Origin: a virus
Reading direction: 5' to 3' (one strand)
Length of the DNA: 40,917 nucleotides
IMG/VR virus record: IMGVR_UViG_3300021062_000008
Coordinates: 1-40,917 of that record
Of this stretch, positions 5,925-23,904 are shown piece after piece. Positions within the stretch are counted from its first letter, which is position 1; the number at the start of each line of letters is the position of its first letter. The notes beneath the pieces are model-generated. The model saw only the letters and a program-made list of their open reading frames with translations, was not told the DNA's origin and ran no database searches. The translations under genes and the position numbers were made by a program.

Positions 5925-5931
5925 GAGCTTC

Positions 5932-6265: not shown

Positions 6266-6275
6266 GTCGGTTCAT

Positions 6276-6351: not shown

Positions 6352-6372
6352 AAAAGTCGAGAGGGGACTTGT

Positions 6373-8485: not shown

Positions 8486-8580
8486 TTGCAAAACGGACAA
8501 GTTCGGATTATGCTTGAATTAATTAACTTACCATTCAAGAACTGAAGGAAGTTGCCACATTTTTCGGTAACTTCTTTTTT
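8486..8580 (+). promoter_or_regulatory. Late leader 1: promoter, conserved boxes and terminator before portal
   Basis: TTGCAA (8486-8491), 17 bp, TATGCT (8509-8514); six bases later AATTAA (8521-8526); AAGAACT (8537-8543), 22 bases after the -10; then the hairpin GAAGTTGCC/GGTAACTTC (8548-8556/8566-8574) with TTTTTT. The same order recurs at 11444, 20488 and 23792. The portal ribosome site (GAAAGGG) follows directly, so the terminator must be read through for portal expression. Confidence 0.75.
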
Positions 8581-8591
8581 GAAAGGGTCTT

Positions 8592-10628
8592 ATGTCAGGA
8601 AAAAAGACGAAAGAAGCACGACGGGAACGTCAAAAGTTTTATACTGAACTCTTTGCCCAGTACCAAAAGGCCCAGCAGGAAGGCGAACTGCGCAAACAGC
8701 ATAAGGAATCTGGTTGGGACGAGATGGATAAACTGTATCGGTCCAACATCAACGCGGCTAAGTGGCCATTTTCTTCACGTATCTTCATGCCGGTTGCTTT
8801 TTCGTCCTTAATTAAGAAGGATACCCGTCTTATCGCCACCAAAATGACAGGCCGATTGGTTCCAACCGAAGATGGTCAGGAACTAGGGGCGATGGTAGGT
8901 ACGGAATTGCTTCATGCGCAATGGGACGACGTGGACCACCACGAATCTGAACCAATGCTTATGAAGATTTTCCGATGGTCACAGCAGGCCCGTCGCTACG
9001 GTGGGGCCTATGTCTGGGCTGGCTGGAAGAAGGAACGCGGCTTTGATGGTCCAACTATGCAGGTCTATGAGCGTAAGCACGTTCTGACCTTATCAGGTTC
9101 AACCAACGTCCAAGAAGGCGTCTTCCTTATCGACTTCCCGATGATTTCTGAATTCTTTGACGTTAATGACACCGCCCAGTCAGGTCCGATCTACAACCCT
9201 GACACATTAGCTAAGATCGAAGCCATGGGTCAGACCACTGATGACACCAGCAATAGCGTAGCTCGTGAGCTTAAAGGCCTGGGGACTCGCTTAGATGACG
9301 CCAACACTGGGACCACCGGCCGTATGCGCCGCGTAACCCGTGTGAAGTACCGATCCCAGCGCCGTTGGATTGATTTCGTGCCTAATGCTGGCGACGAAGA
9401 AGGTTCGACCCCTATGTTTATCCTTCGGGACATTAAGAACCCGTATGATCATGGGCAAGTGTCCTTAGTTCCACTTAACTACTACCCAATTGATGATGAT
9501 GTTGATGGTGTATCTGAACTTGAACCTGTACGAAGCTTGATGAAGGCCTTAAACGCCTTGGTCTGTAACTTCATGGACAGCGCCAACATCGAACTGTTCC
9601 CAATTCTTAAGGGCCACCCAACCAATGTGAACTGGTCCACGATTGACTACCACGCTCGCGCCCAATGGTTGATGCAGAACCCTGCCACTGACCTGGTTAA
9701 GCTTGAGCATAGTAATAGTGGTCTTCAGAAGTTCACCGAAATCTACAAGATGTTGGTCGGGGCTATCAATGAAGCCTTGGGTGAGTCTACCGGTGAAGGT
9801 TCCACTGCCAATCCATTCGCAGGGGATAAGACCGCGACCGAAATCAAAGACACTGCTTTACTACGATCGGCCCGTGACAACTTCAACAAGCTGGCTTTGT
9901 CTACTGCTTTGCAGAAGGTCATGTACTACTGGTGGGAAATGGACAAGCAGTTCCTTACTAACGACAAAGTTATCCGCGTCGTCGGTAAAGAAGCCATCGA
10001 ATACTTCACCCGCGAAGGTTTGCATGACTATGAGCTGTCCGAAGAAGGTTATGAGCTGATCCAGACCTACATGGAAGAAAACCCAGGCGTTGAATTCGAT
10101 CTAGCCTATGAAGCCCTACGTGAGCAAGGTGCATTAGAAGAATACGCTGTCCCACTATTCGGGGTGGACCGTGAAGATGGTACTGGACCAAAGCTTCAAC
10201 TGGACCGATCAGGCAAGACTGGCTTCTTGACTGTTTCCAATGACGATCTATCTGGTAAATTCCGCTACGTCCCTGACATTGAGTCGATGAGCCTACCAAA
10301 TGACACTGAACAAGCCCAGGCAATGATGGGTCTGATGGATAAGATCATCGCCGTCAAAGAAGACCTTATGCAGACAGGGGACACACCTAAATTTAAAGAC
10401 TTACTGGTTGATATTGCCGCTAAAATGCGTATGAGCAACGCCGAACAGTACTTCGGTGCAGGTGATGGTATGGGCGAAACGTCCCTAACCCCAGAACAGC
10501 AAGCGGCTGAACAAGGTATGGACCCAATGGCAGCCGCCGGTGGCGCACCAATGCCAGGTCAACCGATGACAATGGCGAACCTACCGGTCCCACCAGTTGG
10601 TCAACCCGCCGAACAGATGGTACAGTAA
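8592..10628 (+). CDS. Portal protein, P22-like, 678 aa
   Basis: Size, position after terminase and sequence style fit podovirus portals: a helical N-terminus with ANAAKWPFSSRIF-like segment, SSLIKKDTRLIATKM near residue 75, a central NYYPIDDDVDGVSELEPVRSLMKALN region corresponding to stem/wing helices, an EALGESTGEG segment around 396-405, and a disordered Gly/Pro/Met/Gln-rich tail (residues 620-678). It forms the dodecameric DNA gate at the capsid vertex to which the terminase docks. The first gene behind late leader 1. Confidence 0.85.
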   Translation: MSGKKTKEARRERQKFYTELFAQYQKAQQEGELRKQHKESGWDEMDKLYRSNINAAKWPFSSRIFMPVAFSSLIKKDTRLIATKMTGRLVPTEDGQELGAMVGTELLHAQWDDVDHHESEPMLMKIFRWSQQARRYGGAYVWAGWKKERGFDGPTMQVYERKHVLTLSGSTNVQEGVFLIDFPMISEFFDVNDTAQSGPIYNPDTLAKIEAMGQTTDDTSNSVARELKGLGTRLDDANTGTTGRMRRVTRVKYRSQRRWIDFVPNAGDEEGSTPMFILRDIKNPYDHGQVSLVPLNYYPIDDDVDGVSELEPVRSLMKALNALVCNFMDSANIELFPILKGHPTNVNWSTIDYHARAQWLMQNPATDLVKLEHSNSGLQKFTEIYKMLVGAINEALGESTGEGSTANPFAGDKTATEIKDTALLRSARDNFNKLALSTALQKVMYYWWEMDKQFLTNDKVIRVVGKEAIEYFTREGLHDYELSEEGYELIQTYMEENPGVEFDLAYEALREQGALEEYAVPLFGVDREDGTGPKLQLDRSGKTGFLTVSNDDLSGKFRYVPDIESMSLPNDTEQAQAMMGLMDKIIAVKEDLMQTGDTPKFKDLLVDIAAKMRMSNAEQYFGAGDGMGETSLTPEQQAAEQGMDPMAAAGGAPMPGQPMTMANLPVPPVGQPAEQMVQ

Positions 10629-10646
10629 TAACAGAAAGGTGGAAGC

Positions 10647-10979
10647 ATGGCAGAACTTACCCCCGAAGAAGCAAAAGAACTTGAATATTGCCAAGAGATT
10701 AAGGGATTTTTGGAATCTGACGCTTATCGTGTCTACGCCTACCCCCAAATCATGGGCTTATTAGGAAAAGAATTCCCAGACCCGAAACAACCAGGGTGGG
10801 AAGAAGCTTACGTCAAGGCGTTTTCGCTAACCCAGGCAGCGCAAACTATCCATAGCACCTTCGAAAGCCTGGCCCGAAAGGGCGAATCGTTACGCCGTAA
10901 GTCTATGGAAGAAGAACTTGACGACACGATCGCAGGTCGACCAAACAAATATAGTGAGACTGACTTTAATGAGGCATAG
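10647..10979 (+). CDS. Hypothetical head-region protein, 110 aa
   Basis: ATG 10647 follows AAAGGTGGAAGC. The chain is helical and charged (EEAKELEYCQEIKGFL) with a conserved-looking LARKGESLRRKSM segment. It lies between portal and scaffold; a head accessory or packaging protein is possible. Confidence 0.7.
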   Translation: MAELTPEEAKELEYCQEIKGFLESDAYRVYAYPQIMGLLGKEFPDPKQPGWEEAYVKAFSLTQAAQTIHSTFESLARKGESLRRKSMEEELDDTIAGRPNKYSETDFNEA

Positions 10980-11242
10980 TGGAATGGCCAAAATTAATAC
11001 TTATATCCGCAATCTGTTTCTGGTTCTTAAAACAGCCTTGGCTTCGGGTTGGCGACGACTACGACCCTAGCTGGTGGTTTCCCAATTGGGTCATCGAACT
11101 TGTTAGGAGTATCTTCCCATGGCTGAAAACGAACAACCGGAATCGCAGGAACTACCGCCTACGCACGACGCAGTGGCAGACATTCCAGTCGAATTTGCGA
11201 AGGGTCCAGAAACCACGCAGGTCCTACCGCACATACCCGTGA
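10979..11242 (+). CDS. Possible membrane-anchored protein, 87 aa, overlapping the next gene
   Basis: GTG 10979 follows GAGGCATA and overlaps the previous stop. Residues 4-18 are hydrophobic (PKLILISAICFWFL), followed by a Trp-rich segment. The last 40 residues are read in another frame of the next gene and are low-complexity basic, so the coding stretch may be shorter in function. The uncovered 140 bases between genes favour it being real. Confidence 0.45.
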   Translation: MEWPKLILISAICFWFLKQPWLRVGDDYDPSWWFPNWVIELVRSIFPWLKTNNRNRRNYRLRTTQWQTFQSNLRRVQKPRRSYRTYP

Positions 11243-11391
11243 CGGAATCTCGTGGTTGCGCTCACTACTTTGTGCGTAAAAGCGATACAGAAGCAGAATG
11301 CCGTAACCCTGGCTGTAAGTTAGGTCTCTTTATTAGTCCGTCCGAACTCATTATTGACGGGCAACTGCCTGATATGCGACAATCAGGATAA
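11119..11391 (+). CDS. Small zinc-knuckle protein, 90 aa
   Basis: ATG 11119 has AGGAGTATCTTCCC upstream. The N-terminal 45 residues are acidic and disordered; residues 47-70 (CAHYF...CRNPGC...LFI) form a C-x-H/C-x4-C zinc-binding motif often seen in small phage proteins. Located before the scaffold gene; function unknown. Confidence 0.7.
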   Translation: MAENEQPESQELPPTHDAVADIPVEFAKGPETTQVLPHIPVTESRGCAHYFVRKSDTEAECRNPGCKLGLFISPSELIIDGQLPDMRQSG

Positions 11392-11415
11392 CCGCGCGTA
11401 CCTTATCTGCACAAG

Positions 11416-11437
11416 CCCCTGAACACCAGGGGTTTTT
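11416..11437 (+). terminator. Intrinsic terminator ending the portal transcript
   Basis: CCCCTG (11416-11421) pairs with CAGGGG (11427-11432) across a five-base loop, followed by TTTTT. It is directly before the promoter of late leader 2. Confidence 0.85.
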
Positions 11438-11443
11438 GTGTAC

Positions 11444-11582
11444 TTGACAACCGATTAAAGGGTAGCTTACACTAAGGACAACTAGGTATTGTTTGGAGAA
11501 CCCAACGCACCGAAATGTTTGATCAACATTGGTGCGTTTTTTAGTTTCCCCAACACCCATATTCGTACTTTCTACCTAGTTG
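11444..11582 (+). promoter_or_regulatory. Late leader 2: promoter, conserved boxes, terminator and alternative pairing
   Basis: TTGACA (11444-11449), 18 bp, TACACT (11468-11473); six bases later AACTAG (11480-11485); GAGAACC (11496-11502), 22 bases after the -10; then AACGCACC/GGTGCGTT (11504-11511/11531-11538) with TTTTTT. In addition CAACTAGGTA (11479-11488) is a perfect complement of TACCTAGTTG (11573-11582) beyond the terminator, so the conserved box could pair in a second fold. It precedes scaffold and capsid genes. Confidence 0.8.
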
Positions 11583-11620
11583 CCCGACCCAGGGGTTAAT
11601 CGATGGCGAAAGGACACATT

Positions 11621-12469
11621 ATGGACGAAGAAGTCCAAGACGGCGTATTAGACGCAGACGACACTGCGGACGTGGAACCCACCACAACCGACGATGCCCC
11701 AGGCATTGCCGAACAAACGGTCGACGAAGACGTTGTTTCTGACGACGATGATGAAGTCGATGATCTGGACGCGGACGGGATTCCTACGGATTTACCGGAA
11801 GACCCCCAGAAGCAGAAGGAAGCGTTCACCAAAATGCGGTTGGCATTGAAGAAGGCCCGTAGGGGTAATACTCAACCAGCTGCCGACGAAGATGCCGATG
11901 ACCAAGTCGATGCAAGTCAAGATTTTGACTTTCGCATACCGGCCCCTATCAACTACACGGACCAGGACCTTCAAGACCCTGTGACCGCTGCACGGATTCA
12001 GGCCGCCGACGCCCAGCGTCAGGCTGCTATGACCCAGGCACAGTTAGAAGATATGGAAGCGGAAAGTCGTTTCCCTCAATTGGCGAAACGATCCGGCCAG
12101 TATGATCCTGTGTTCGCCAAAATGGTGAAGCGGTCATACACCCACGAAGTGGTGCAGGCAATGCACACTAATCGGCCGAAACCACGACTTGCCCAGGTAG
12201 CCGCGATGGTGGCAAAAGACCTTAAAATTTCACAAGTACGGACTGAAAAGTCCACGCTCGTAAAAGCACAACAACAATTAGCAGCTAAAGAACAAGCAGC
12301 TTTAGATGCCCGCGGTAGTTCAGTTAATTACGAACCGCCCGCCGAACAAAACAAGGCGCGTATCCAGAAGATTCGCAGCGGCAGCCGACAGGCGTTAGCC
12401 GACGAACTCTTGGACATTGAAGTAAGTAAATACTCGAACCAAGACCTAGGCTTCTACGGCTACGATTAA
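11621..12469 (+). CDS. Scaffolding protein, 282 aa
   Basis: ATG 11621 (MDEEVQDG) is preferred, with GAAAGGACACATT upstream; ATG 11603 in frame is possible. The first 60 residues are almost purely acidic and disordered, then a Pro-rich linker, a helical coiled-coil region and a basic C-terminus (ARIQKIRSGSRQALADELL). This acidic-to-basic layout directly before the capsid gene is typical of internal scaffolds whose basic end grips the capsid protein during assembly. Confidence 0.8.
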   Translation: MDEEVQDGVLDADDTADVEPTTTDDAPGIAEQTVDEDVVSDDDDEVDDLDADGIPTDLPEDPQKQKEAFTKMRLALKKARRGNTQPAADEDADDQVDASQDFDFRIPAPINYTDQDLQDPVTAARIQAADAQRQAAMTQAQLEDMEAESRFPQLAKRSGQYDPVFAKMVKRSYTHEVVQAMHTNRPKPRLAQVAAMVAKDLKISQVRTEKSTLVKAQQQLAAKEQAALDARGSSVNYEPPAEQNKARIQKIRSGSRQALADELLDIEVSKYSNQDLGFYGYD

Positions 12470-12481
12470 TAGGAGTAACAA

Positions 12482-13393
12482 ATGGCCCAGTTAACAGGTG
12501 TGCAACAGACATACCAGGACAAGACGCGGAAAGAAGACTTGATGGACAAGATTTATGACATCTCACCAGATGCCAATATCTTGACCACCATGCTCGATCC
12601 GGTAAACGTAGACAACACATTCCACGAATGGCTGGAATACAACATTGCTCGACCAACTTCAAACAGCATCACTGTTGAAGGTGACGACAATACCTATTCT
12701 GACCTGACCCAATCAAGCCGACTTAACAATATCTGCCAGATCATTAAAGAACCGTTTTCTGTTTCCGGTACTATTGAGAAAGTCGACAAAGCCGGTCCAA
12801 AGGGCGCTTATGCTCGTGAGATGGCTTGGGCAATGACTCGTGTTAAGAACAAATGGGAATATGCTACCCTTCGTGGTACAAAAGCTTCCGGTGCGTCCGG
12901 CGTAGCCCGTGAAATGAACGGTCTTATCGCTGATGTTATGAGCAACGGTCGCGCTACTGCCCGAAACAGTGGTACTTCCTTCAGCCTCAACGAATTTAGC
13001 GACATCAACATGGAATCATGGAACCAGACTGATGAGTACATGATCAACATGCTTCTCATGCACGGTTTCACCAAAACTGCTGTCGGTCGATTCTTCACCA
13101 CGTCAACACCACGAACCGTTGATATGAGCGACAAGCGTCTTACCCAGGCACTTGAAGTCATCGAAAACGATTTCGGTCAACTCGTAATCCTCAAGGCGCA
13201 CAAAGACATGCCTACTAACGCTGTCCTTGGTATCCGCCATGAGTTGTGCCACACTGGTATTCTTCGTCCAGTTAAGCACGTTCCTAACGGCGTAACCGGT
13301 GATAACATCAAGGGTCACATCGTTCTGGAAGCTACTACGCAGGTTGATAGCGCACGCGCTATGGTCTACCGTTCCGGCTACTTGACGAACTAA
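12482..13393 (+). CDS. Major capsid protein, SU10-like/DUF5309 family, 303 aa
   Basis: ATG 12482 follows AGGAGTAACAA, 12 bases after the scaffold gene. The N-terminus (KEDLMDKIYDISPDAN, then FHEWLEYNIA) is the recognisable opening of the DUF5309/SU10 major capsid family, and the middle has the usual ISRAMN-like and WEYATLRGTKASG segments before a long beta-rich C-terminus. HK97-fold shell protein. The following hairpin at 13439-13463 probably limits read-through, fitting a highly expressed gene. Confidence 0.85.
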   Translation: MAQLTGVQQTYQDKTRKEDLMDKIYDISPDANILTTMLDPVNVDNTFHEWLEYNIARPTSNSITVEGDDNTYSDLTQSSRLNNICQIIKEPFSVSGTIEKVDKAGPKGAYAREMAWAMTRVKNKWEYATLRGTKASGASGVAREMNGLIADVMSNGRATARNSGTSFSLNEFSDINMESWNQTDEYMINMLLMHGFTKTAVGRFFTTSTPRTVDMSDKRLTQALEVIENDFGQLVILKAHKDMPTNAVLGIRHELCHTGILRPVKHVPNGVTGDNIKGHIVLEATTQVDSARAMVYRSGYLTN

Positions 13394-13438
13394 TAGCCAG
13401 TCGATACAGTAGTAGTAAGGAAGACTATATAGGGATTG

Positions 13439-13463
13439 GGGTCCTCCTCGTGGGGACCCTTTT
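13439..13463 (+). terminator. Weak intrinsic terminator after the capsid gene
   Basis: GGGTCC (13439-13444) pairs with GGACCC (13454-13459), followed by TTTTCC. The short T-run suggests partial termination, lowering expression of downstream genes relative to capsid. Confidence 0.65.
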
Positions 13464-13486
13464 CCAAACAGTTAGGTGGAAGCAAC

Positions 13487-13879
13487 ATGTCCGAAATCTA
13501 TGTCACTAAAAAAGGTACTGTCGTTAATGAGGCTCAGTCTCAAGCGGCGGACCTTCTTTTAAAAATGCACAAGACAATGGAAAAATGGGCTTTCATCGAC
13601 GAAGTCGTTAAGTTCTGGAAGATGCAGCACCCTGACAAATGGGCGTCGTACACCAGCGCTTACGAAAACCTGCTGTCCCGCGGCGAACTGTTAAACGAAA
13701 AGACTGGGGCGGACCGTACTGGGTCGATGCGGCGCATAGGACAATTACCAACCGAACTATACACAGTGTTGGAATTCTTCTACCCCCAAGAACTAACAAA
13801 CCCAAAGGCACAGCACGAGTTTCTAACTCGCTTCCTTAATGCATATCCAATGTTTAGAATCCCTAGCAACAGGGTCTAA
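13487..13879 (+). CDS. Hypothetical head/neck protein, 130 aa
   Basis: ATG 13487 (MSEIYVTKKGTVV) follows TTAGGTGGAAGCAAC; an upstream in-frame start at 13436 would run through the terminator and is rejected. The chain is mainly helical with basic and aromatic residues and ends FLNAYPMFRIP. Its place after the capsid gene suggests a head-completion or capsid accessory; no family is recognised. Confidence 0.7.
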   Translation: MSEIYVTKKGTVVNEAQSQAADLLLKMHKTMEKWAFIDEVVKFWKMQHPDKWASYTSAYENLLSRGELLNEKTGADRTGSMRRIGQLPTELYTVLEFFYPQELTNPKAQHEFLTRFLNAYPMFRIPSNRV

Positions 13880-13892
13880 GAAAGGAACTATT

Positions 13893-14189
13893 ATGGCTGA
13901 CGAAGAAGTCCAGGACCAACCGGCAGAACAACCGGAAGATACCAACAGATCAATTGCGAATATCGAAAAACAAGCTAAGGGTGGCTTTTTAAATGCTATC
14001 CAGAAGCGCTACATCGAAAAGTATGCCGACGACACCATTAAGATGTTGTCCGAATACAAAGCCCTTAAGCACGCCCTTAAACAGTATGACGCGTGGATTA
14101 AACGTGTAGATGCTGGCGACATGACCGCCATCGACGAATACAAAAAGAAGCGAATCCGACTTGAGGACGAAGACGGATATGAATTCTAA
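13893..14189 (+). CDS. Hypothetical helical head-region protein, 98 aa
   Basis: ATG 13893 follows AAAGGAACTATT. An acidic disordered N-terminus (residues 1-25) is followed by helices rich in Lys, Tyr and Glu (FLNAIQKRYIEKYADDTIKM). No motif for a known function. Confidence 0.7.
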   Translation: MADEEVQDQPAEQPEDTNRSIANIEKQAKGGFLNAIQKRYIEKYADDTIKMLSEYKALKHALKQYDAWIKRVDAGDMTAIDEYKKKRIRLEDEDGYEF

Positions 14190-14514
14190 TGAAGCAGCAA
14201 AGTTTTTAAAAAAGGTTCACGGCGCGTCTACCCCTCTTGGTCGGGCGGCCCAGGCTGCTTATAGCGCTGCACGCAATCAACAGATTGATGCTGTAAATCG
14301 TCAGTTGAATCAAGCTGATCTTTTATACCGGAACCAGGGCTTAGGTCAATCTAGCCAGGCCGGACAGCTTCAGAAGCTTTTAGAAGAAGCGCGAAATGGT
14401 AGAAAACGAAAATTAACTATAGTACAGCTGGTTTTAGGCGTGAAAAGACGCCGCCCTATCCCCTCTTTAGGTCGGGCCGTGACTGGTATGACTAGTATGG
14501 CAATGTTTATCTAG
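14179..14514 (+). CDS. Small Ala/Gln-rich protein, 111 aa
   Basis: ATG 14179 overlaps the previous gene by 11 bases; an upstream in-frame TTG at 14161 is less likely. Residues 1-75 form an Ala/Gln/Asn-rich helix (AAQAAYSAARNQQIDAVN), then a basic, Pro/Gly end (KRRRPIPSLGRAVTGM). It may be an internal head or ejection protein. Its stop touches the pseudoknot element. Confidence 0.6.
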   Translation: MNSNEAAKFLKKVHGASTPLGRAAQAAYSAARNQQIDAVNRQLNQADLLYRNQGLGQSSQAGQLQKLLEEARNGRKRKLTIVQLVLGVKRRRPIPSLGRAVTGMTSMAMFI

Positions 14515-14578
14515 GTGGAAGGTCGTTTTGGCCCCACTAGGTCTAGTTTTCGGCTTCCACCGGCTAGCCTAGTGGGCC
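14514..14578 (+). promoter_or_regulatory. Pseudoknot-like RNA element before the glycosyltransferase operon
   Basis: GGTGGAAG (14514-14521) is complementary to CTTCCACC (14554-14561), and GGCCCCACTAGG (14530-14541) to CCTAGTGGGCC (14568-14578, one bulge). The order A-B-A'-B' is the topology of an H-type pseudoknot. GGTGGAAG is also this phage's usual ribosome-site variant, so the fold could mask or mimic a ribosome site. It ends 13 bases before the first sugar gene and has no T-run. Confidence 0.65.
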
Positions 14579-14591
14579 TGAAAGGATATGA

Positions 14592-16895
14592 ATGGCTAAA
14601 TTAGCCTTATCTGTAATTACAAAGAACAATGAAGAAACCATCGGCCGCCTACTGGCATCAGTGGCGAAGTATGTCGATGGTATTTTTATTACTGATACCG
14701 GTTCAACTGACAATACGATCGAGATTGCCAAGCAGTATGGGGCCGTGATTAGCGAATTTAAGTGGATTGATGACTTTGCGGCAGCGCGAAACTTCGCTTT
14801 TGCCCAGGTCCCAGAAGAATTTGAATATATTTTATGGGCTGACAGTGACGATGAGATTGTTGGGGCTGAAAATCTGCCCGATATTGTCGAACAGATGGAA
14901 ATGCAGGACATTACAGCCACCTTCTTCCAGTACAACTACACTATTGACCCTGTTAGTGGCCATGTTTTGGTCAAGCACGCCCGTGAACGGGTGGTGAAGC
15001 GCGGTAAGTACGAATGGAAGGGCCGACTGCACGAAACCTTGATCCCCAAGGGTCAGGATAAAGGTGTGTTATCTGATTTAGTGGAAGTGAACCACTGGCC
15101 TACCCAGGAATCGATTGTCGATAACGAACACCGCAACATGCGTATCCTAGAAGCCCAGTATGAGGCTGAAGGTGAGAACAAAGACCCTAGGACCGAATAC
15201 TATTTGGCCCGTGCCTACTTTGATGCCGGTGAATACGCGAAGGCGAATAAGATGTTCCAAGACTACCTTGAGCATTCAGGGTGGGACGAAGAACGCGCCA
15301 TGGCCTGGAACTACGTCGGTGAAATCCATAAGCAGTTTAACGACTATGAAAGCGCCCTGACCGCCTACTTCGAAGCTTTACGTGAGCGACCCGACTACCC
15401 TACTTGGTATGTGAACATCGCCATGACCTATGCCCTTATGGAAAAATGGGACTTCTCTAAGATTTGGATTAAGAAGGCCTTAGCAGTACCGGCTAAAGAA
15501 AAAACCGCTATGGTCCTGAACCCTAAAGACGATATGGCTAGGGCTATGGAAACCTTATTCATGGTGTCCTTCCACGAAGGTGAGCTTGACGAGGCGTGGG
15601 CTGCTGCCCAGAAGCTTGCCCAGATGTTCCCTGATCAACCTGAATTCAAAGAACGGTTCGAATCTGTCACCAAGCTACGCCGCTGGAACAAGATGACCAA
15701 GAACGCTATCGAAATCGCCCAGGAACTTCAGGCCTTAAAGGAAGACTATAAGCTGGAAGCTTTTATCAATTCCCTACCCCAGATCATCATGGGCAACCAG
15801 AACATGACCAACTTCCGTCACACCGTCCTACCGCCCAAGACCTGGTCCGATAAGTCCATCGTCTACTTCGCTGGTAAGGCGTTTGAAAAGTGGGACCCTG
15901 ATTCCCTAGAAAAAGGGGTCGGTGGGTCTGAAACTGCCGTAATCTATCTAGCTAAGGAATGGGCCGCCAAAGGCTACGACGTAACCGTCTACGGCTGGCC
16001 ACATAAGGAAGGGGTCTACGATGGCGTCAACTACCTCTACTGGTGGCGATGCAACTTCACCGACAGGTTCAATATCTTCATTTCGTGGCGGAACGAACAA
16101 ATCTTTAAGCTGGGCATCGAAGCTCGAATTAAATTGCTGGACTGCCATGATGTTCTTAACCAGGCCGACATTCTTGAGGTGGATAAGGACATTGATTTTT
16201 ACATGGTCAAATCGAATTATCACCGAACCTTTCTACCCGACGTCCCAGAAGACCGATTTAAAGTTATTTCAAACGGTATCGATCGGCCAACAGGTCTACG
16301 AGGTGCCAAAGAACTTCCGCGAAATCCGTTCCAACTCGCCTGGGTATCGTCTTATGATCGCGGACTCGAACATCTACTTAAAATGTGGCCAAAAATTAAA
16401 GAAGCTGTCCCCGAAGCTACCTTAAAGATCGCCTACGGCTGGAACTTATTCGATACCGCTTGGAAGGGCAACCCAGAACGCCAGATGTGGAAGAAACGCA
16501 TGGTAGAACTAATGCAACAGCCTGGCATTACAGAAGTCGGACGACTATCTAAGAAGGCCCTGCATGAGCTTCACCGCGAATCGGCTATTCTCGCCTACTA
16601 CTGCCACTTTGAAGAAATTAACTGTATTTCCGTCCTAGAAGCCCAGGCCAACGGGTCTGTTCCCGTCACCACGGCTTACGCCGCCTTAAATGAAACCAAT
16701 GAATTCGGCATTAAGGTAGCCGGCGATCCGTACGCCAAGACCACCAAGGTGGACTACGCCAACGCTTTGATCAACGCCCTTAAGAATCCCCCATCAGACA
16801 AGAAGCGTCTCGAAATGGTAACGGCTATCCGCGAAAAGTACGACTGGGTCAACATCGCCAAGCAATGGAAGAAGGTGTTCGATGGCAAAGCCTAA
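14592..16895 (+). CDS. Bifunctional glycosyltransferase: GT2 domain, TPR-like region, GT-B domain, 767 aa
   Basis: ATG 14592 follows AAAGGATATGA. Residues 1-190 are a GT2 (GT-A fold) domain: LSVITKNNEETIGRLL, a TGSTDNT nucleotide-sugar segment and a DSDDE metal motif at 84-88. Residues about 195-375 are helical repeats resembling TPRs (AMAWNYVGEIHKQFNDY, then YPTWYVNIAMTYALM). Residues about 400-767 are a second, GT4-like GT-B domain with VGGSETAVIYLAKEW, ISNGID and EINCISVLEAQANGSVPV near the donor site. Two sugar-transfer steps could be joined in one chain. It leads five coupled sugar genes inside the virion operon, so the acceptor may be a virion protein, though host surface glycans are possible. 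Confidence 0.85.
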   Translation: MAKLALSVITKNNEETIGRLLASVAKYVDGIFITDTGSTDNTIEIAKQYGAVISEFKWIDDFAAARNFAFAQVPEEFEYILWADSDDEIVGAENLPDIVEQMEMQDITATFFQYNYTIDPVSGHVLVKHARERVVKRGKYEWKGRLHETLIPKGQDKGVLSDLVEVNHWPTQESIVDNEHRNMRILEAQYEAEGENKDPRTEYYLARAYFDAGEYAKANKMFQDYLEHSGWDEERAMAWNYVGEIHKQFNDYESALTAYFEALRERPDYPTWYVNIAMTYALMEKWDFSKIWIKKALAVPAKEKTAMVLNPKDDMARAMETLFMVSFHEGELDEAWAAAQKLAQMFPDQPEFKERFESVTKLRRWNKMTKNAIEIAQELQALKEDYKLEAFINSLPQIIMGNQNMTNFRHTVLPPKTWSDKSIVYFAGKAFEKWDPDSLEKGVGGSETAVIYLAKEWAAKGYDVTVYGWPHKEGVYDGVNYLYWWRCNFTDRFNIFISWRNEQIFKLGIEARIKLLDCHDVLNQADILEVDKDIDFYMVKSNYHRTFLPDVPEDRFKVISNGIDRPTGLRGAKELPRNPFQLAWVSSYDRGLEHLLKMWPKIKEAVPEATLKIAYGWNLFDTAWKGNPERQMWKKRMVELMQQPGITEVGRLSKKALHELHRESAILAYYCHFEEINCISVLEAQANGSVPVTTAYAALNETNEFGIKVAGDPYAKTTKVDYANALINALKNPPSDKKRLEMVTAIREKYDWVNIAKQWKKVFDGKA

Positions 16896-17685
16896 AGTTC
16901 TATTCGTCTACGATCATCAGTACCCTGACCTATGGCGCGATGGTCTGTGGGCTGCCCTTAAAGAATTAGAAGATGATTTCGACATTACGTGGTGGAACCT
17001 AGCTAAAGATGAACTGATGGCTAAAACGGACCAGGACTTTGTGTTAGGCTGGGGCGGTTTCAATTCTTTTGTCGACGTTACCTTGCGTGAACAGATGTAC
17101 GATCGCAAGAAGGGGCTATGCATCGGCGGCAACGCCTTTCCCCCTGCCCACACTGACCAGTACGACGTTTTGTTCTACGAAACTGAATGGTATCGGCCAC
17201 AGATTGAACACCACCCTAATCCTATCCACGCCTTCGGGGTCAACACTGACATCTATCGTCCCTTAGAAGCTTCAAAGCACGTGCGCATTTTCGACTGGCT
17301 AACCGTTGGGGCTTTTGCTGACTGGAAACGCCAAGAGCGTATACTTAATAAGGACGGCATCAAAATGGCTGTTGGCGAAATCCAGAAAGGCAACCCAGAT
17401 GAATCTAACCGAATCGTCACCACTTTACTTGCTGGCGGCTGTGCTTGTTCTGATATGGTTAATCCCGAAACTCTTGCGTATCTTTATAATTTTAGTCGTC
17501 GTGTCTATATCCCTGCCGATCTTAATGGGGGCGGCGAACGGGCGGTCCTGGAAGCAAGAGCTTGCGGGGTACCAGTCGAAGTTGAATCCGATAACCCAAA
17601 GCTTCAAGAATTACTTACCAGTCCTATCTGGTCACATCACTACTACGCTGAACAGCTTAGAAAAGGAATAGAATCATGCCTATAA
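16882..17685 (+). CDS. Glycosyltransferase, GT-B (GT4-like), 267 aa
   Basis: It overlaps the preceding gene by 14 bases, with AAGGTGTTCG before ATG 16882. It opens KPKVLFVYDHQYPDLW; the second half has a Rossmann-like region ending NGGGERAVLEARACGVPVEVE, the donor-binding signature of GT4 enzymes. The single-strand length is short for a two-domain enzyme (usually over 350), so the N-terminal acceptor domain is reduced. Confidence 0.75.
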   Translation: MAKPKVLFVYDHQYPDLWRDGLWAALKELEDDFDITWWNLAKDELMAKTDQDFVLGWGGFNSFVDVTLREQMYDRKKGLCIGGNAFPPAHTDQYDVLFYETEWYRPQIEHHPNPIHAFGVNTDIYRPLEASKHVRIFDWLTVGAFADWKRQERILNKDGIKMAVGEIQKGNPDESNRIVTTLLAGGCACSDMVNPETLAYLYNFSRRVYIPADLNGGGERAVLEARACGVPVEVESDNPKLQELLTSPIWSHHYYAEQLRKGIESCL

Positions 17686-18230
17686 GACTGAACATAGGCT
17701 GCGGTCCCCTACCGCTACACGACCAACACAAGAAGCTGATGGACCAGTATGGTGACGGCTGGATTTTAGTCGACAAGTACGTCAAAGACCCTGCAATCGT
17801 AGATTACGATGCGGCTAATCTACCTTTCGAAGCTGGTAGCGTAGACACGATCTACTGTTCCCACTTACTTGAACATATTCCTTTCGGTGAAGTCCCCAAC
17901 TTGGTGAGACATTGGCACGACCTCCTCACAAGTGGGGGTGAGCTGGTGATTAATGTCCCTGACTTTGAATGGGTGTGTGAAGTCTTTATGGGTCGTACTG
18001 TCCCCCAGACCAACTACTATAAGGCTAGCCTTGAGTTTACCGACCCTGTCCATAACCTACAGGCTATCATCTATGGCAATCAGGACCACGAAGGCGAATA
18101 TCACAAGTCTGCCTACGATGAGCATTCCCTTTATAAGCTACTGGACCAAATGGGATTTGAAACCATCAATATTGAACGGGTCTACGAAGCGCATGACATG
18201 GGCTGCCTACTAGCAAAGGCGGTCAAATGA
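17676..18230 (+). CDS. SAM-dependent methyltransferase (class I, type 11-like), 184 aa
   Basis: AAAAGGAATAGAATC precedes ATG 17676. Motif I is LNIGCGP (residues 5-11), followed by VDKY (acidic residue for the ribose) and DAANLPFEAGSVDTIYCSHLLEHIP around 50-73, as in type-11 methyltransferases and predicted SAM-dependent enzymes of polysaccharide loci. Within the cluster it likely methylates a transferred sugar, but a protein or nucleotide target cannot be excluded. Confidence 0.8.
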   Translation: MPIRLNIGCGPLPLHDQHKKLMDQYGDGWILVDKYVKDPAIVDYDAANLPFEAGSVDTIYCSHLLEHIPFGEVPNLVRHWHDLLTSGGELVINVPDFEWVCEVFMGRTVPQTNYYKASLEFTDPVHNLQAIIYGNQDHEGEYHKSAYDEHSLYKLLDQMGFETINIERVYEAHDMGCLLAKAVK

Positions 18231-19225
18231 AAGTTCTAGTTACCGGTGGCGCTGGCTTTATAGGGTCGCATCTTGTTGATCGATTACTAGCCCAAGGTCA
18301 CGAAGTTTATGTCCTAGACGACATGTCAGGCGGCTACAGTGAAAACTTACCCCAAGAAGCCAAGGTCATCGTGATTGATCTGCGTAACGCCCGCCGCGCT
18401 AAGGTCTGTATTGAACAGATCAAACCTGAAATTATCTACCACCTTGCAGCAGACGCGGCAGAAAACAAAGCCCAGTTCTCACCCATCGAAGTGACTTCCC
18501 GCAACTGGAATGCCTTCATTAACGTACTGACCCCCGCTATTAACAACGGGCTTAAGCGATTCATCTTTACCAGTAGCATTGCGGTCTACGGTCACGGCCC
18601 TAAGTGGGGCAAGAAGCCATTTCACGAAAGCGACTTCTGCCAGCCGGCTGACCTTTACGGGATTACGAAGCTAGCCTGTGAGGAATCTTTAAAGGTTTTG
18701 TCCAAGGTCCACGGCTTTGAATACGTGATTGTCCGACCACACAACGTCTTTGGCCCACGTCAGAACATGCGGGACCCTTACCGAAATGTCGTCACGATCT
18801 TCATGAACGCGCTTTTAAAGGGTGAGGCGTACAATATCTATGGGGACGGTGAGCAAGTCCGAAGCTTCACCTATATCGATGACCTAGCTGACCCCTTGGC
18901 GAAATGTGCTTACCTTGCTGCGGCAAAGAACCATACCTACAACATGGGGACCGACACCCGACTGACGATCAATGAACTTTCCAAGCTAATTCAGGAAGTA
19001 GCCGGTAAGAAAATTAAACCCCACTACCTCCCCTCTCGCCCGCAGGAAGTTCACGAAGCAGTGTCTAACCATTCGCAGGCAGATCAGGTATTCGGCGTCT
19101 ATGCCACCCCCACCAAAGAAGCTTTGAAACGAACCTGGGAATGGGTGGAAGCCCAAGGTCCACAGGACGCTAAGTACCAGAAATTAGAAATTAATAGCCC
19201 ATTAATACCGGAAAATTGGAAATGA
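18227..19225 (+). CDS. NAD-dependent epimerase/dehydratase, extended SDR, 332 aa
   Basis: ATGA overlap with the methyltransferase. GGAGFIG at residues 7-13 binds NAD; YHLAADA near 77, the TSSIAVYG Ser region near 122 and YGITK near 145 complete the Ser/Tyr/Lys triad of GalE-like nucleotide-sugar epimerases. It probably makes or changes the sugar donor used by the neighbouring transferases. Length matches the family. Confidence 0.88.
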   Translation: MKVLVTGGAGFIGSHLVDRLLAQGHEVYVLDDMSGGYSENLPQEAKVIVIDLRNARRAKVCIEQIKPEIIYHLAADAAENKAQFSPIEVTSRNWNAFINVLTPAINNGLKRFIFTSSIAVYGHGPKWGKKPFHESDFCQPADLYGITKLACEESLKVLSKVHGFEYVIVRPHNVFGPRQNMRDPYRNVVTIFMNALLKGEAYNIYGDGEQVRSFTYIDDLADPLAKCAYLAAAKNHTYNMGTDTRLTINELSKLIQEVAGKKIKPHYLPSRPQEVHEAVSNHSQADQVFGVYATPTKEALKRTWEWVEAQGPQDAKYQKLEINSPLIPENWK

Positions 19226-19758
19226 TAAGTGTTATAATCCCCTACTACGAATCCGACGAAGGCAAACCCGCTATTCTTAAGCGGCTGGTTGATTCCTTAA
19301 ATGGCTACGATGAACTGATCGTGGTCTGGAATGACAAGATGGGTTACGCCAAAGCCATCAATAAGGGTCTAGCCCTGGCTAAAGGCGACCACATGATCGT
19401 GATGAATGATGATCTGATTATGCAGTCAGGTTCCTTACGGGACCTACCTAGCGATCGCGGCGTCACGTCCCCTGTCGTTAATGACCGAATGCAGCCCTTC
19501 TGGGGTTGCTGCTTCTGTATCCCCCGCTGGGTCTACGAATCTGTTGGCGGGCTGTATGAAGGCTATCGAATCAGTTACTACGATGACGATGACTATATCC
19601 AGCTGCTTAAAAAGGGCAACGTCCCGATGGACTGTGTCGACAAAGTTAAGTTCTCGCACCCTGAAGGCGGCCGGACTTTGCACACTTTCCCCGACCACCC
19701 TGAATTCTTTAAGGAAAACCAAGCAAAATTCAAAGAAAGATGGGGTTTCATACCATGA
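19222..19758 (+). CDS. Glycosyltransferase family 2-like, 178 aa
   Basis: ATG 19222 (MISVIIPYYES) overlaps the previous TGA. SVIIPYYES, VWNDKMGYAKAINKGLALAKGD and a MNDDLI metal motif are typical of GT2 GT-A folds. A YYDDDDYIQLL segment lies where acceptor-side acidic residues are found. It is shorter than usual (about 240) and probably a minimal catalytic domain. Confidence 0.8.
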   Translation: MISVIIPYYESDEGKPAILKRLVDSLNGYDELIVVWNDKMGYAKAINKGLALAKGDHMIVMNDDLIMQSGSLRDLPSDRGVTSPVVNDRMQPFWGCCFCIPRWVYESVGGLYEGYRISYYDDDDYIQLLKKGNVPMDCVDKVKFSHPEGGRTLHTFPDHPEFFKENQAKFKERWGFIP

Positions 19759-20507
19759 ATATATCTGTTATTACGCCCACGGTGAGACCAGAAGGACTAG
19801 AATTGGTTGCGAAGGCCCTTTCACGGCAAACCTGGGACGATTTCGAATGGTTAATCTGTTCGCCCGCTGAACCAGAACCGGTATTTATCGAAGGAATGGC
19901 AGGGCGCTGGATACCAGACGACTTCGAAGGTGGGTTTTGGTCCCTTAATCGGGCCTACAATAAATTATTCAAAGAAGCACAGGGCGAATTGATTGTCAGT
20001 TTACAGGATTGGGTCTATGTTCTACCGGAAGGATTGGAAAAGTTTTGGTATCAATATAATGCGACTGGTGGCGTTATTACTGGTGTTGGCGATCAGTATG
20101 ATCGGCTAGGACCAGACGGAAAACCCATCAACAAAGTCTGGGAAGACCCACGCAAAACCGATAAGTATGGGTCATTTTACTTGTGTAACTGGGAAGACAT
20201 CGAATGGAACTGGGCTGCTATCCCCCGCGAAGCGATCTTCGAAGCCGGCGGTATGGACGAACAGCTAGACTTCCTGGGATATGGTGGCGACCAGCTGCAA
20301 CTGATGGAACGCATCAACGCCCTACGCTACAAGACCTATATTGATCAGTCGAATGAATCCTTTACCCTACGTCACGACCGGTCCAAACATGGCGGCGAAG
20401 CGAAGTGGAATGCCAACCATATTCTGTTTAACGGTGAATACGACAAACGTAAGAAGGAATTAATAGAAGCCGGTACATGGCCACGGCTTGATTACCTAGC
20501 GAATTAG
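19755..20507 (+). CDS. Glycosyltransferase family 2-like, 250 aa
   Basis: ATG 19755 overlaps the preceding stop by ATGA. It opens ISVITPTVRPEGLELVAKAL, the classic GT2 start, and has FWSLNRAYNKLFKEAQGELIVSLQDW, where LQDW replaces the common DxD/DDD site, and a later GGMDEQLDFLGYGGDQ matching the C-terminal acidic motif of galactosyltransferase-like GT2 enzymes. The end of the gene contains the -35 region of late leader 3, so the sugar block is closed by a new promoter. Confidence 0.8.
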   Translation: MNISVITPTVRPEGLELVAKALSRQTWDDFEWLICSPAEPEPVFIEGMAGRWIPDDFEGGFWSLNRAYNKLFKEAQGELIVSLQDWVYVLPEGLEKFWYQYNATGGVITGVGDQYDRLGPDGKPINKVWEDPRKTDKYGSFYLCNWEDIEWNWAAIPREAIFEAGGMDEQLDFLGYGGDQLQLMERINALRYKTYIDQSNESFTLRHDRSKHGGEAKWNANHILFNGEYDKRKKELIEAGTWPRLDYLAN

Positions 20508-20580
20508 TCTTACACTAAAACTAACTAAGCTTACTTTCGAGAACCGAAGAAGCTGCCTATTAATACAGGTGGCTTCTTTT
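20488..20580 (+). promoter_or_regulatory. Late leader 3: promoter, conserved boxes and terminator before tail genes
   Basis: TTGATT (20488-20493), 17 bp, TACACT (20511-20516); six bases later AACTAA (20523-20528); GAGAACC (20539-20545), 22 bases after the -10; then GAAGCTGCCT/AGGTGGCTTC (20549-20558/20567-20576, two G-T pairs) with TTTTT. The ribosome site TTTAGGTGGGAT of the adaptor follows. Confidence 0.8.
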
Positions 20581-20594
20581 TATTTAGGTGGGAT

Positions 20595-21257
20595 ATGTCA
20601 ATAAAACTAACCAAAGATCAAATCTTTCAGCGGGCAGCAGCTACCGTAAACGGTGAAGCAACGGCCCCCGATACGACGGATACCGAATACAGCACCTGGT
20701 CGGAATTCTTGGAAGAATCGAACCAAGAATGGCCCCTAGTTTTCCCTTTTAGGGCGCTTAACAAGACGTTTAACGCAACGGCGAATCAGTCCGGCACTAG
20801 CGTGGCTTTACCTAGGGACTTTCGAAAGTTCCGTGGCTTCCCTACCTTCGATGGTGCTGAACTTCAAGAAGTACGTGAAGAAGAAACAGGCCTGTTCAGG
20901 GGTCAAAGCTATGTAGTTCCCAAGATCAACGCTTCCCATATCCCCTACCTCCTTACCACCCCACTACGTGGTACAGGTGGTTCGTTCGTGGCAGCGGCTA
21001 TTCCTTATGTCAGTAGTCCTACCCATATGGCCACTGGTTCTTCTGTGTCCCCTTGCCCAGACGACAGTTTCCTGGTGAATCGATTAAAGGAAAAGATTCT
21101 AAAGCAGCGCGGCGACCCCGCCTTTACGCTGTATCAAGAAGAAGCTGACGCAGTTCTATCACGCATGATCGAAGACGAAGTGGTCCAGTTCAACCAGTTG
21201 GACAGTTCCACCAAGTCGACATTCTCGCACGGCGGCTTCACAATCGGACAAGATTAG
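20595..21257 (+). CDS. Head-tail adaptor (gp4/gp11-like), 220 aa
   Basis: Size, position directly before the nozzle gene and the pattern of a helical start (KDQIFQRAAATVNG), a WSEFLEESNQEWPLVFPFRAL segment and a long C-terminal helix pair fit the podovirus adaptor ring that links portal to nozzle. Sequence identity to P22 gp4 or T7 gp11 cannot be shown by eye, so the call rests on context and layout. Confidence 0.65.
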   Translation: MSIKLTKDQIFQRAAATVNGEATAPDTTDTEYSTWSEFLEESNQEWPLVFPFRALNKTFNATANQSGTSVALPRDFRKFRGFPTFDGAELQEVREEETGLFRGQSYVVPKINASHIPYLLTTPLRGTGGSFVAAAIPYVSSPTHMATGSSVSPCPDDSFLVNRLKEKILKQRGDPAFTLYQEEADAVLSRMIEDEVVQFNQLDSSTKSTFSHGGFTIGQD

Positions 21258-21267
21258 GAGGGCGCCA

Positions 21268-23256
21268 ATGCCACAAATCCGACGTAACCGACGCCCCTAT
21301 AAACCACCGAAGCTAGCCAATATTGAGTGGAATAGTTTTCGCCGTGGCGTCAACAACCTACTTTTAGACACCGAACTAGGCCCTGAAGAAGTGAAGGAAC
21401 TGACAAACCTTCAGATTACTGGTAAAGGTATCATCGAACCACGTCCTGGAACGGGTTTCTTTCACAAGGCTGCCGCTTCTGGCCGTATTCGTGCCTTAAA
21501 GGGCTTCTATGGTCAAAACAGTACCCTAGCATCGGGTGCGAATGAACTTTTAGCTATTTCTGACGCTGGTTTCCTAACTAAAAAGAACGGGGCCAGTTAT
21601 TCGATTATTCAGGGCTTTTCTTACCCTTCAGGGTATAACGCTGAACTGTCCCAGCTTAACGACCTGGTCTTTATAAGTAACGGTAAGTCGAACCTAACCC
21701 GCTACAATGGGGCCACTATCCAGACCTATGGCTTTATCGGGTCCCCTTCCATGCTGTCCATCACCAAGTCTTCAGGAACTACGACAGGAACCTTCACCCG
21801 AAGCTATCGCGTATCCGCTGAATCTGACGTTGGTGAGACTTTAGCCGCCCAAGCGATCTCATTGGGCAACTTACCTGAAACTTTGAACACTACCGGCTTC
21901 CTAACGATCAACTGGGCTGCCCCATCGGCCGCTTCTGGCGCGATTAAAGGTTACGTCATCTATGGTCGTAACCGTGGCGATGAAGCGTACCTAGCGCGTG
22001 TATCTGGCGAAACGACTAGCTGGGTAGATACCGGCACTAGTAGCCCGTCCTTAGTCACCCTACCCCCAACGTCCAACACCACTCAAGGCCCGATTGCTGC
22101 TTACCAGATCGTTCACCAGGAACGCTTAGTCCTACTTAAATTAGAAGGCAACGTCTGCCGCGTGGCTTGGTCCGGTGGCGGTACGTATGTCGACAAGTTC
22201 CACTACTCAAAAGGTGGTGGCTACCGTGACATCAACTTAAACGCTGGCGAAGAAATTACTGGCGGTATTAGCCAGGAAGACCGAATCATCGTCTTCTTTA
22301 CCCGTTCGATCTTCGAGATGCGCCTGACCTATAACGAGACCCTGGGCATCGTCGAACCAACCGTAAAGCGTATTTCTGGCGCTGTTGGTGCAGCCAGTCA
22401 TCGAACCATCAAGACTTCTGAAAATGAAATTGCCTTCATTGGCCGCCGTCCTGGTGGTGCTTATTCCCTTAACTTCTTGGGCTATGAGCCTAACTTTACC
22501 GCTTCGGTCCTTCGAACTTCTGAAATTTCCCCACGCATTCGTGCTTGGTTTGAAACCTTGAACGCCATGCGCATCGAAACCGACATGTGGTGTATCTACT
22601 ATAAGAACGCTTACTTCATGTTTGGTCCTGTTGGCGCGAATGAATGGTCAGTCATGGTCTACGATCGTGAGCGCCTGGCCTTCTATGGTCCGTGGACGAT
22701 TACCGATGCAGCTTGCGGCGAAATCTACTACGACACCAGTGAAGCTGAACACCTTCTGTTTGGTAAGACCGATGGTAACGTCATTGAGATGTCAGAACAG
22801 TATTCAACTGATGAAGGTGAAGAATACAGTGTTCGCTTCTTAACCAAGAAAGAAGACTGGAACGTACCATTTACCCTTAAATTCTTAAAAGATGTCTTCT
22901 TTGCTATTCGAAACCCAATCGGCAATATCACCCTTACCGTCTACATCGAAGAAAAAGACGGCCGGACCACTGCCGCGAAGAACTTCCCACTTAACAGTCA
23001 GGACCGCATCACGCCAGCTGGTTGGGGTTCCTTCGCTTGGGGTAGCAAGGCCTGGGGGTATAAGACGCAGGCATCGACAAATAGTACGTCCATTTCTGAC
23101 GTTAAGAAATACCTGTCCGTGTATAAGCCAAACGTCTTAACTGCCCAAATTGGTATCACTGGTACAGGTGTAGACTTTAAATTATTAGCCCTTAAAATGC
23201 GGGCGCAGATCGCTTCGGAAAACAATGTTCCTTCTAGCTTCCGATCTAACTCTTGA
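21268..23256 (+). CDS. Tail nozzle/hub protein with Fn3-like insert, 662 aa
   Basis: ATG 21268 follows AGGAGGGCGCCA. It has an ELTNLQITGKGIIEPRPGTGFF opening, repeated beta-blade-like segments (LLAISDAGFLTKKNG, LVFISNGKSNLTRYNG), an Fn3-like part around residues 170-270 (SVSAESDVGET-type turn, GYVIYGR) and a C-terminal beta domain. This order suits the beta-propeller nozzle of short-tailed phages (P22 gp10, T7 gp12). It probably forms the hexameric tail tip holding fibres and DNA. Confidence 0.75.
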   Translation: MPQIRRNRRPYKPPKLANIEWNSFRRGVNNLLLDTELGPEEVKELTNLQITGKGIIEPRPGTGFFHKAAASGRIRALKGFYGQNSTLASGANELLAISDAGFLTKKNGASYSIIQGFSYPSGYNAELSQLNDLVFISNGKSNLTRYNGATIQTYGFIGSPSMLSITKSSGTTTGTFTRSYRVSAESDVGETLAAQAISLGNLPETLNTTGFLTINWAAPSAASGAIKGYVIYGRNRGDEAYLARVSGETTSWVDTGTSSPSLVTLPPTSNTTQGPIAAYQIVHQERLVLLKLEGNVCRVAWSGGGTYVDKFHYSKGGGYRDINLNAGEEITGGISQEDRIIVFFTRSIFEMRLTYNETLGIVEPTVKRISGAVGAASHRTIKTSENEIAFIGRRPGGAYSLNFLGYEPNFTASVLRTSEISPRIRAWFETLNAMRIETDMWCIYYKNAYFMFGPVGANEWSVMVYDRERLAFYGPWTITDAACGEIYYDTSEAEHLLFGKTDGNVIEMSEQYSTDEGEEYSVRFLTKKEDWNVPFTLKFLKDVFFAIRNPIGNITLTVYIEEKDGRTTAAKNFPLNSQDRITPAGWGSFAWGSKAWGYKTQASTNSTSISDVKKYLSVYKPNVLTAQIGITGTGVDFKLLALKMRAQIASENNVPSSFRSNS

Positions 23257-23282
23257 CGAAGATTATAAAGGGGGTTTATAAT
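23253..23282 (+). promoter_or_regulatory. Promoter with operator in the spacer, driving the CAP-domain gene
   Basis: TTGACG (23253-23258), 18 bp and TATAAT (23277-23282). GGGGGTT ends the spacer directly before the -10 box (G5 core 23270-23274), identical in geometry to the promoter at 473-502 and that at 33525-33554. It is an isolated early-type promoter inside the late tail region. Confidence 0.85.
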
Positions 23283-23304
23283 TTAGTTAAGAAAGGTGGA
23301 AGCA

Positions 23305-23787
23305 ATGAAGTATCGAATCATGCCAGCAGTCGCAGCAATATTCCTATTGGGTGCGGTTACTGGCTTTTCGGTTTGTCACGTGGTTAAACCAACCCCGCTG
23401 ACAGAACCGGTGGTATCCCCTACCCCGACTGATGATCGGGCGGAACTGACGGTCGATAACGTACTCATCAGGTTCAACGAAAAGCGTCTGGCGGCAGATT
23501 TGCCCCAGTTGCCTACGAACCTTCAATACAACAAGGTCGCCGAACAGCGGGCTAAAGAAGTCTGCGCTGTTAATAAAGTCGACCACAGCGGATTGCGGGA
23601 AGCTGTAGAATCGGGTCAGTTGCCTAGCGGTAGCCGTGAGGTCATCGCCTTTGGTATCCCCAATTCGACCACGACAGTTGCCGAATGGATTAAGTCGCCT
23701 ACTCACCGCGACTTCGTGCTGTCAGACGACATAAAAGAAATAGGAATAGGTGTTTATCAGGACTGTACCGCGATCGTAGGAAAGTAA
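23305..23787 (+). CDS. Secreted CAP/SCP-domain protein, 160 aa (moron)
   Basis: ATG 23305 follows AAAGGTGGAAGCA. Residues 5-24 are a signal peptide or membrane anchor (MPAVAAIFLLGAVTGFSVC, where the Cys may or may not be a lipid site). Residues 50-158 are a CAP (YkwD/SCP-like) domain: RFNEKRLAADLPQL, VAEQRAKEVC, DHSGLREAV, and AEWIKSPTHRDFVL with the family His. CAP proteins act outside the cell; bacterial roles are poorly known. Own operator-controlled promoter and a downstream late promoter mark it as an independently expressed moron, perhaps altering the host surface. Confidence 0.8.
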   Translation: MKYRIMPAVAAIFLLGAVTGFSVCHVVKPTPLTEPVVSPTPTDDRAELTVDNVLIRFNEKRLAADLPQLPTNLQYNKVAEQRAKEVCAVNKVDHSGLREAVESGQLPSGSREVIAFGIPNSTTTVAEWIKSPTHRDFVLSDDIKEIGIGVYQDCTAIVGK

Positions 23788-23791
23788 TCGC

Positions 23792-23884
23792 TTGACCTTC
23801 TAGTAAGTCCGATCTATTCTATAAGTAACTAGCTTAGAATAGAAAACCTATCGAGCTGCCATTAATTCATGTGGCAGCTTTTTC
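23792..23884 (+). promoter_or_regulatory. Late leader 4: promoter, conserved boxes and terminator before ejection genes
   Basis: TTGACC (23792-23797), 17 bp, TATTCT (23815-23820); six bases later AACTAG (23827-23832); GAAAACC (23842-23848), 21 bases after the -10; then AGCTGCC/GGCAGCT (23854-23860/23873-23879) with a T-run. The terminator also ends the CAP transcript. Confidence 0.8.
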
Positions 23885-23904
23885 TTTGTTCAAAAGGAGC
23901 GTTT

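Follow-up and report, generated by a model that had tools for sequence, protein, structure and literature searches.

Why should a phage place an intrinsic terminator directly behind the promoters of its virion genes? This question is raised by the window analysed here, the whole 40,917-base IMG/VR virus record IMGVR_UViG_3300021062_000008 of an uncultured phage, in which four leaders carry a promoter, an AACTAR-like box and a terminator, followed by an open reading frame (ORF). A sequence-only reading had described this arrangement, and the sequence, read directly, confirms it as real. We consider it likely that the four leaders are transcription attenuators, and probably the early/late switch, in which a small hairpin stabilised by a factor would permit read-through.

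The arrangement is specific to these four places. The expression TTGN3-N16-19-TAN3T-N5-7-AAYTAR matched only at 8486, 11444, 20488 and 23792 when both strands of the 40.9 kb were scanned; as it was derived from these very sites, its uniqueness speaks for specificity but does not amount to an independent p-value. A second, partly independent descriptor (TANNNT, then a stem of at least 4 bp around ARAAC, then a T-run) picked out these four leaders and nothing else in the window, where dinucleotide shuffles yield 0.05 on average. The distance from the end of the -10 to ARAAC is 23, 23, 23 and 22 nucleotides (nt) in leaders 1 to 4, and at each leader the next ORF starts about 10-80 nt past the terminator.

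The shared GAGAACC-like box turned out to be the apex of a covarying hairpin with a 4-bp stem and the pentaloop AGAAC (AAAAC in leader 4). The hairpins had been regarded as merely different from one leader to the next, and this does not hold, for a common structure is present: the four upper stems are fully different in sequence and yet all of them pair (Table 1). The commonest form has the conserved pentaloop and, below the upper stem, a single bulged base on the 5' side followed by a lower stem. Among 22 leaders of the AGAAC class, 98.9% of cells were paired versus 63.9% after shuffling, and the covariation score was 1.044 versus 0.312 (standard deviation, sd, 0.054; 0/500 shuffles); kinship among leaders can inflate such a comparison, yet the stems differ even among leaders of one genome. 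All four stem pairs vary on both sides, and sliding the partner abolishes the covariation signal. At the gathering score of Rfam only a tRNA matched in the window, leader 3 giving weak matches far below the cut-off; a known Rfam family as the identity of the leaders was thus rejected.

To see how widely the leaders occur, relatives were collected with portal searches, which gave 80 viral loci, 72 of which were examined; the relatives' portals are 28-45% identical. Under strict automatic criteria, 48 distinct leaders with a terminator directly before the portal gene were found among the 72 loci. Upstream of these portal terminators, an extended -10 occurs in 26 of 48 leaders (4.9 expected, sd 2.0) and an A-rich pentaloop hairpin in 22 of 48 (2.8 expected, sd 1.5). 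In closer relatives the leader-controlled genes are orthologous, namely the portal, scaffold, adaptor and ejection-like genes, with a fibre-like gene in addition in G001 and G004. In the relatives, leaders before the same genes have the order of promoter, hairpin and terminator, and the hairpin covaries (0/500 shuffles). The proposal of a shared signal linked to antitermination, most likely made of RNA, is thereby supported: it is kept at orthologous late genes in relatives.

Two other features that had been put forward as conserved signals, the AACTAR box and the constant spacing, did not survive this comparison. In relatives of the same loop class AACTAR is absent at the corresponding place, save for one chance-like AATTAA, and was rejected as a conserved signal because it is confined to the window genome. 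The spacing of 22-23 nt is likewise specific to the window, the distance from the -10 to the loop being mostly 14-21 nt in these relatives (34 in one). Both features would have suited a Q-type DNA signal, in which a protein of the phage attaches to the promoter DNA and is loaded onto a polymerase paused near +16, with AACTAR as the pause element; within the window the box does lie at about +1 to +6 at a constant spacing, and the promoter-terminator architecture resembles lambda pR'-tR'. However, the relatives keep neither box nor spacing, and what is conserved is an RNA hairpin. Moreover, a search of 10 records for Antiterm (PF03589) proteins came up empty although its Escherichia coli control matched; other Q families were not searched. 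This explanation is therefore very improbable.

The relation between hairpin and terminator is central to our reading. The four leader terminators are strong, at about -14 to -17 kcal/mol and followed by T-runs, which makes them far more stable than the antiterminator hairpins at about -5 to -8 kcal/mol; consequently, the default state is expected to be off. In the folds, the 3' arm of the hairpin's lower stem consists of the first bases of the terminator 5' arm, so that antiterminator and terminator are mutually exclusive. This complementarity was examined with swap tests. In the 48 portal leaders the gain was -4.44 kcal/mol with the matched terminator versus -2.72 with swapped ones (sd 0.26; 0/20000), and in the AGAAC class -4.77 versus -3.10 (sd 0.41; 2/20000). 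When the 22 terminator arms were ranked, the leader's own arm came 1st in leader 1 and 2nd in leaders 3 and 4, the three leaders with a strong lower stem.

A terminator may serve as an insulator where it separates gene blocks, and the leader terminators could accordingly be constitutive insulators or stabilisers of mRNA 5' ends, with the small hairpin serving mRNA stability, translation or protein binding and no regulated antitermination taking place. Against this, the terminators come after the promoters, and at leader 2 a separate terminator already stands ahead of the promoter, so that a further one behind it is not needed for ending upstream transcripts. As the matched complementarity between leader and terminator would also be left unexplained, we attribute little probability to this alternative.

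The loops give a further indication. In the portal leaders the loop varies by clade (AGAAC, AAAAA, AACAM as AACAA/AACAC, GAAAA, AGCAA and others). Within one genome a common loop is carried on different stems: AGAAC in G001, G002 and G003, and AACAA/AACAU/AACAC in G011. Sharing of the loop inside a genome, combined with its change from clade to clade, suggests a trans-acting factor that binds the loop, and the differences between clades look as would be expected if such a factor co-evolved with it. The loop of lambda boxB is GAAAA, and in L073, L112 and L113 exactly this loop was found. Small A-rich pentaloop hairpins that diverge between phages would thus also fit a boxB-like site, at which a small phage peptide of the lambda N type binds the pentaloop, rides on RNA polymerase and antiterminates processively, the overlap with the terminator being secondary. 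Yet no boxA-like sequence is present in any of the four leaders (GCTCTTWA with at most 1 mismatch; the count over the whole window is at chance level), a systematic complementarity to the terminator arm is unneeded in such a model, and a single leader per operon suggests local action. Hence we regard the boxB-like explanation as unlikely.

Attenuation by a factor-stabilised hairpin could then proceed as follows. Host RNA polymerase would start at the sigma70-type promoter and soon meet the intrinsic terminator, which as the more stable fold would keep the virion operon off by default. The small hairpin (a 4-bp stem under the A-rich pentaloop AGAAC, in most cases a bulged base on the 5' side, and a lower stem) would fold first, its 3' arm taking up the first bases of the terminator 5' arm. 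A trans-acting factor, probably encoded by the phage, would bind the apical loop and stabilise the hairpin; this would shorten the terminator stem and part it from the U-tract, so that the polymerase could enter the virion genes. At the level of sequence, the promoter-like and terminator elements, the covarying hairpin, the overlap, the conservation at orthologous genes and the sharing of a loop within genomes are established; from these we infer activity in cells, the existence of a factor, its origin in the phage and the timing.

Several points weigh against attenuation of this kind. The hairpins are thermodynamically weak, at about -3 to -14 kcal/mol and mostly above -10, and a stabilisation therefore has to be assumed. 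The overlap is weak in leader 2, whose own arm ranked 14th of 22, and in some relatives too. Some portal loci are without a leader by the strict criteria, in part through misplaced starts, and G005 and G007 carry leaders with dissimilar loops. Several test designs or terms were chosen after the leaders had been inspected. Finally, no antiterminator factor was identified in profile searches for CAT_RBD, Antiterm and NusG.

Regarding these searches, CAT_RBD (PF03123) gave no match in the window and the nine related records, with controls matched; some of the records may be incomplete, and the protein could be encoded by the host. NusG-type proteins (PF02357) were also not found in 10 records, with the control matched in 10 genomes. 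In the case of the ANTAR domain (PF03861) there were zero matches, and zero in the controls too. The homologues detected both in the window and in the records with the same loop belong in essence to virion, packaging and glycosylation functions, joined by a few small late genes and an HNH-like protein. Among them, a small DUF2292-like protein encoded immediately upstream of the portal leader stands out because it is located outside the attenuated operons. Its profile matched in 94 loci, at most once per locus, and its resemblance to DUF2292 is at sub-threshold level only. The AlphaFold2 model has a pLDDT (predicted local distance difference test) of 92 and the order H-H-H-E-E (H, helix; E, strand). 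Searched with Foldseek against PDB and BFVD, it had no match at E<=0.001, and the best Z with VIA-align was 2.1, so that no RNA-binding fold is supported. As the protein is also present in records without a detected portal leader (L022, L065), its candidacy as the trans-acting factor remains a guess, and a rather improbable one.

The coordinates of the leaders and of the genes behind them are collected in Table 1. Except for the capsid, gene functions come from homology and position, and the names scaffold, adaptor and ejection are positional. The portal, scaffold, adaptor and ejection proteins of the window had no match in Pfam or PHROGs, the major capsid protein was assigned to the SU10 type by Pfam profile search (E 8.9e-51), and a DnaD-like helicase loader is also encoded. 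A portal search of INPHARED returned zero cultured phages with a matching portal.

Table 1. Leader elements and neighbouring genes in the window
Feature	Position	Strand	Remarks
Small DUF2292-like protein, speculative factor candidate	8218-8484	+	immediately upstream of portal leader
Leader 1 promoter (portal)	8486-8514	+	TTGCAA-17-TATGCT; AATTAA at 8521-8526
Leader 1 putative antiterminator	8524-8554	+	UUCA/UGAA, AGAAC 8538-8542, lower stem UAACUU/AAGUUG plus CC/GG
Leader 1 intrinsic terminator	8545-8580	+	overlaps antiterminator 3' arm
Portal protein gene, behind leader 1 (predicted control)	8592-10628	+	homologous to the gene directly behind leaders in 48 loci; function from context
Separate terminator ahead of leader 2 promoter	11413-11440	+	also delimited as 11413-11435
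Leader 2 promoter (scaffold/capsid operon)	11444-11473	+	TTGACA-18-TACACT; AACTAG at 11480-11485
Leader 2 putative antiterminator	11485-11511	+	UUGG/CCAA, AGAAC 11497-11501, weak lower stem GGU/ACC
Leader 2 intrinsic terminator	11504-11542	+	
Scaffold-like gene, behind leader 2	11621-12469	+	position and homology
SU10-type major capsid gene, leader 2 operon	12482-13393	+	PF17236
Leader 3 promoter (adaptor operon)	20488-20516	+	TTGATT-17-TACACT; AACTAA at 20523-20528
Leader 3 putative antiterminator	20528-20554	+	UUCG/CGAA, AGAAC 20540-20544, lower stem AGCUU/AAGCU
Leader 3 intrinsic terminator	20546-20581	+	
Adaptor-like gene, behind leader 3 (predicted control)	20595-21257	+	orthologue behind leaders in G001, G002, G003
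Leader 4 promoter (ejection-like operon)	23792-23820	+	TTGACC-17-TATTCT; AACTAG at 23827-23832
Leader 4 putative antiterminator	23830-23858	+	AUAG/CUAU, AAAAC 23843-23847, lower stem UAGCUU/GAGCUG
Leader 4 intrinsic terminator	23853-23885	+	
Ejection/internal virion protein-like gene, behind leader 4 (predicted control)	23905-25332	+	orthologue G001 5394-6593 behind AGAAC leader

Other features of the genome were noted alongside. The large terminase is split into two ORFs, one ATPase-like and one nuclease-like, at 6373-8207, and the same split occurs in G002, G006 and G011; between the two ORFs of the window sits another of 120 aa (7172-7534), and a tRNA-Pro (TGG) lies directly ahead of the terminase gene at 6276-6351. 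The interval between portal and scaffold encodes a small Cys-rich, zinc-ribbon-like protein (11119-11391), which is conserved in G001, G002, G004 and G006. Glycosyltransferase-, methyltransferase- and epimerase-like genes at 14592-20507, partly kept in relatives, separate the capsid from the adaptor genes. By sequence inspection alone, patatin-type lipase-like and SPFH/prohibitin-type-like genes were noted at 33694-34650 and 36228-37052 (-). A 13-bp motif, TAAAGGGGGTTTA (first site TTAAGGGGGTTTA), occurs at 489 (-), 888 (-), 1145 (+) and 23266 (+). The TAAAGGGGGTTTA copies are in or beside the -35/-10 spacer of likely promoters at the left end and upstream of the gene at 23305, and the motif is a possible operator or activator site.

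Concerning the host, a first genome scan gave no match. A second scan yielded one contig of a metagenome-assembled genome (MAG), binned as Candidatus Moraniibacteriota (Patescibacteria), whose capsid protein is 52% identical to that of the window. By eye, the promoter-hairpin-terminator arrangement is recognisable on this contig before an adaptor-like gene (L136:10120-10210), with TAGAAT, the hairpin AAAG[AUAAA]CUUU with pentaloop AUAAA, and GCAA/UUGC overlapping the terminator. On the thin evidence of this one MAG contig, the host probably belongs to the Patescibacteria.

Taken more broadly, the leaders may represent an undescribed control of late genes that spans a clade of uncultured, podovirus-like phages whose hosts are perhaps Patescibacteria: a miniature attenuator resembling the ribonucleic antiterminator (RAT) at each main virion operon, together with an antiterminator from a new protein family that the phage encodes and that binds, and co-evolves with, the pentaloop, the DUF2292-like protein being one possibility. 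We judge the chances of this wider proposal to be about even; no description of such leaders was found in open-access papers. If true, a phage clade would switch from early to late by RNA attenuation through an element of about 30 nt that recurs at every virion operon; this would take the place of a Q-type protein, a phage polymerase or a new sigma factor. It would also open a first way into the gene regulation of phages whose hosts are possibly candidate-phyla bacteria, and the clade could supply many orthogonal pairs of small antiterminators and factors. Since the loops differ between clades, candidates for the factor can be put to a direct test.

How do these leaders compare with known systems? 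They had been likened to N-, Q- or put-type signals. The antitermination part of this analogy is supported, while N, Q or put as the best fit is not, because the lower arm of the hairpin is complementary to the 5' arm of its own terminator and not to swapped ones, which is the logic of RAT and ANTAR leaders. With lambda N/nut, the leaders share a small hairpin in nascent RNA whose A-rich pentaloop varies between phages; unlike nut, they have no boxA, their hairpin overlaps the terminator, and each late operon carries one of them at its promoter. As in lambda Q/pR'-tR', a late promoter is followed by a terminator and late control would act via read-through, but here an RNA hairpin is present, a genome has multiple leaders and no Q family protein (PF03589) was found. 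The put RNA of HK022 is larger, strongly conserved in sequence and acts without a protein. Although it is also an RNA antitermination signal close to a promoter, the leaders have hairpins of roughly 30 nt with divergent loops and terminator overlap; a put-type signal was rejected, as they are too short and too divergent.

Protein-stabilised antiterminators that shorten a terminator stem are established biology (PMC3369936), and in the LicT and ANTAR systems stabilisation of the hairpin separates the terminator stem from the U-tract (PMC3369936, PMC8934654). Like the RAT of BglG, LicT and SacY, the leaders have a bulge-bearing hairpin that overlaps and excludes the terminator 5' arm, and that a bound protein would stabilise (PMC3369936); this mutual exclusion with an intrinsic terminator was found in folds and swap tests, and is weak in leader 2. 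In contrast to the two asymmetric internal loops of the BglG/LicT RAT, a short hairpin with a conserved pentaloop and one 5' bulge is found here; no CAT_RBD protein was detected, and the putative targets are phage virion operons with one copy each. The ANTAR systems (EutV, NasR, AmiR) are similar in the loop-specific recognition that is predicted for the phage leaders, in terminator overlap and in having multiple leaders per genome (four in eut; PMC3369936). They use two tandem hexaloops with A1 and G4, whereas the phage leaders carry a single pentaloop hairpin within about 25-30 nt.

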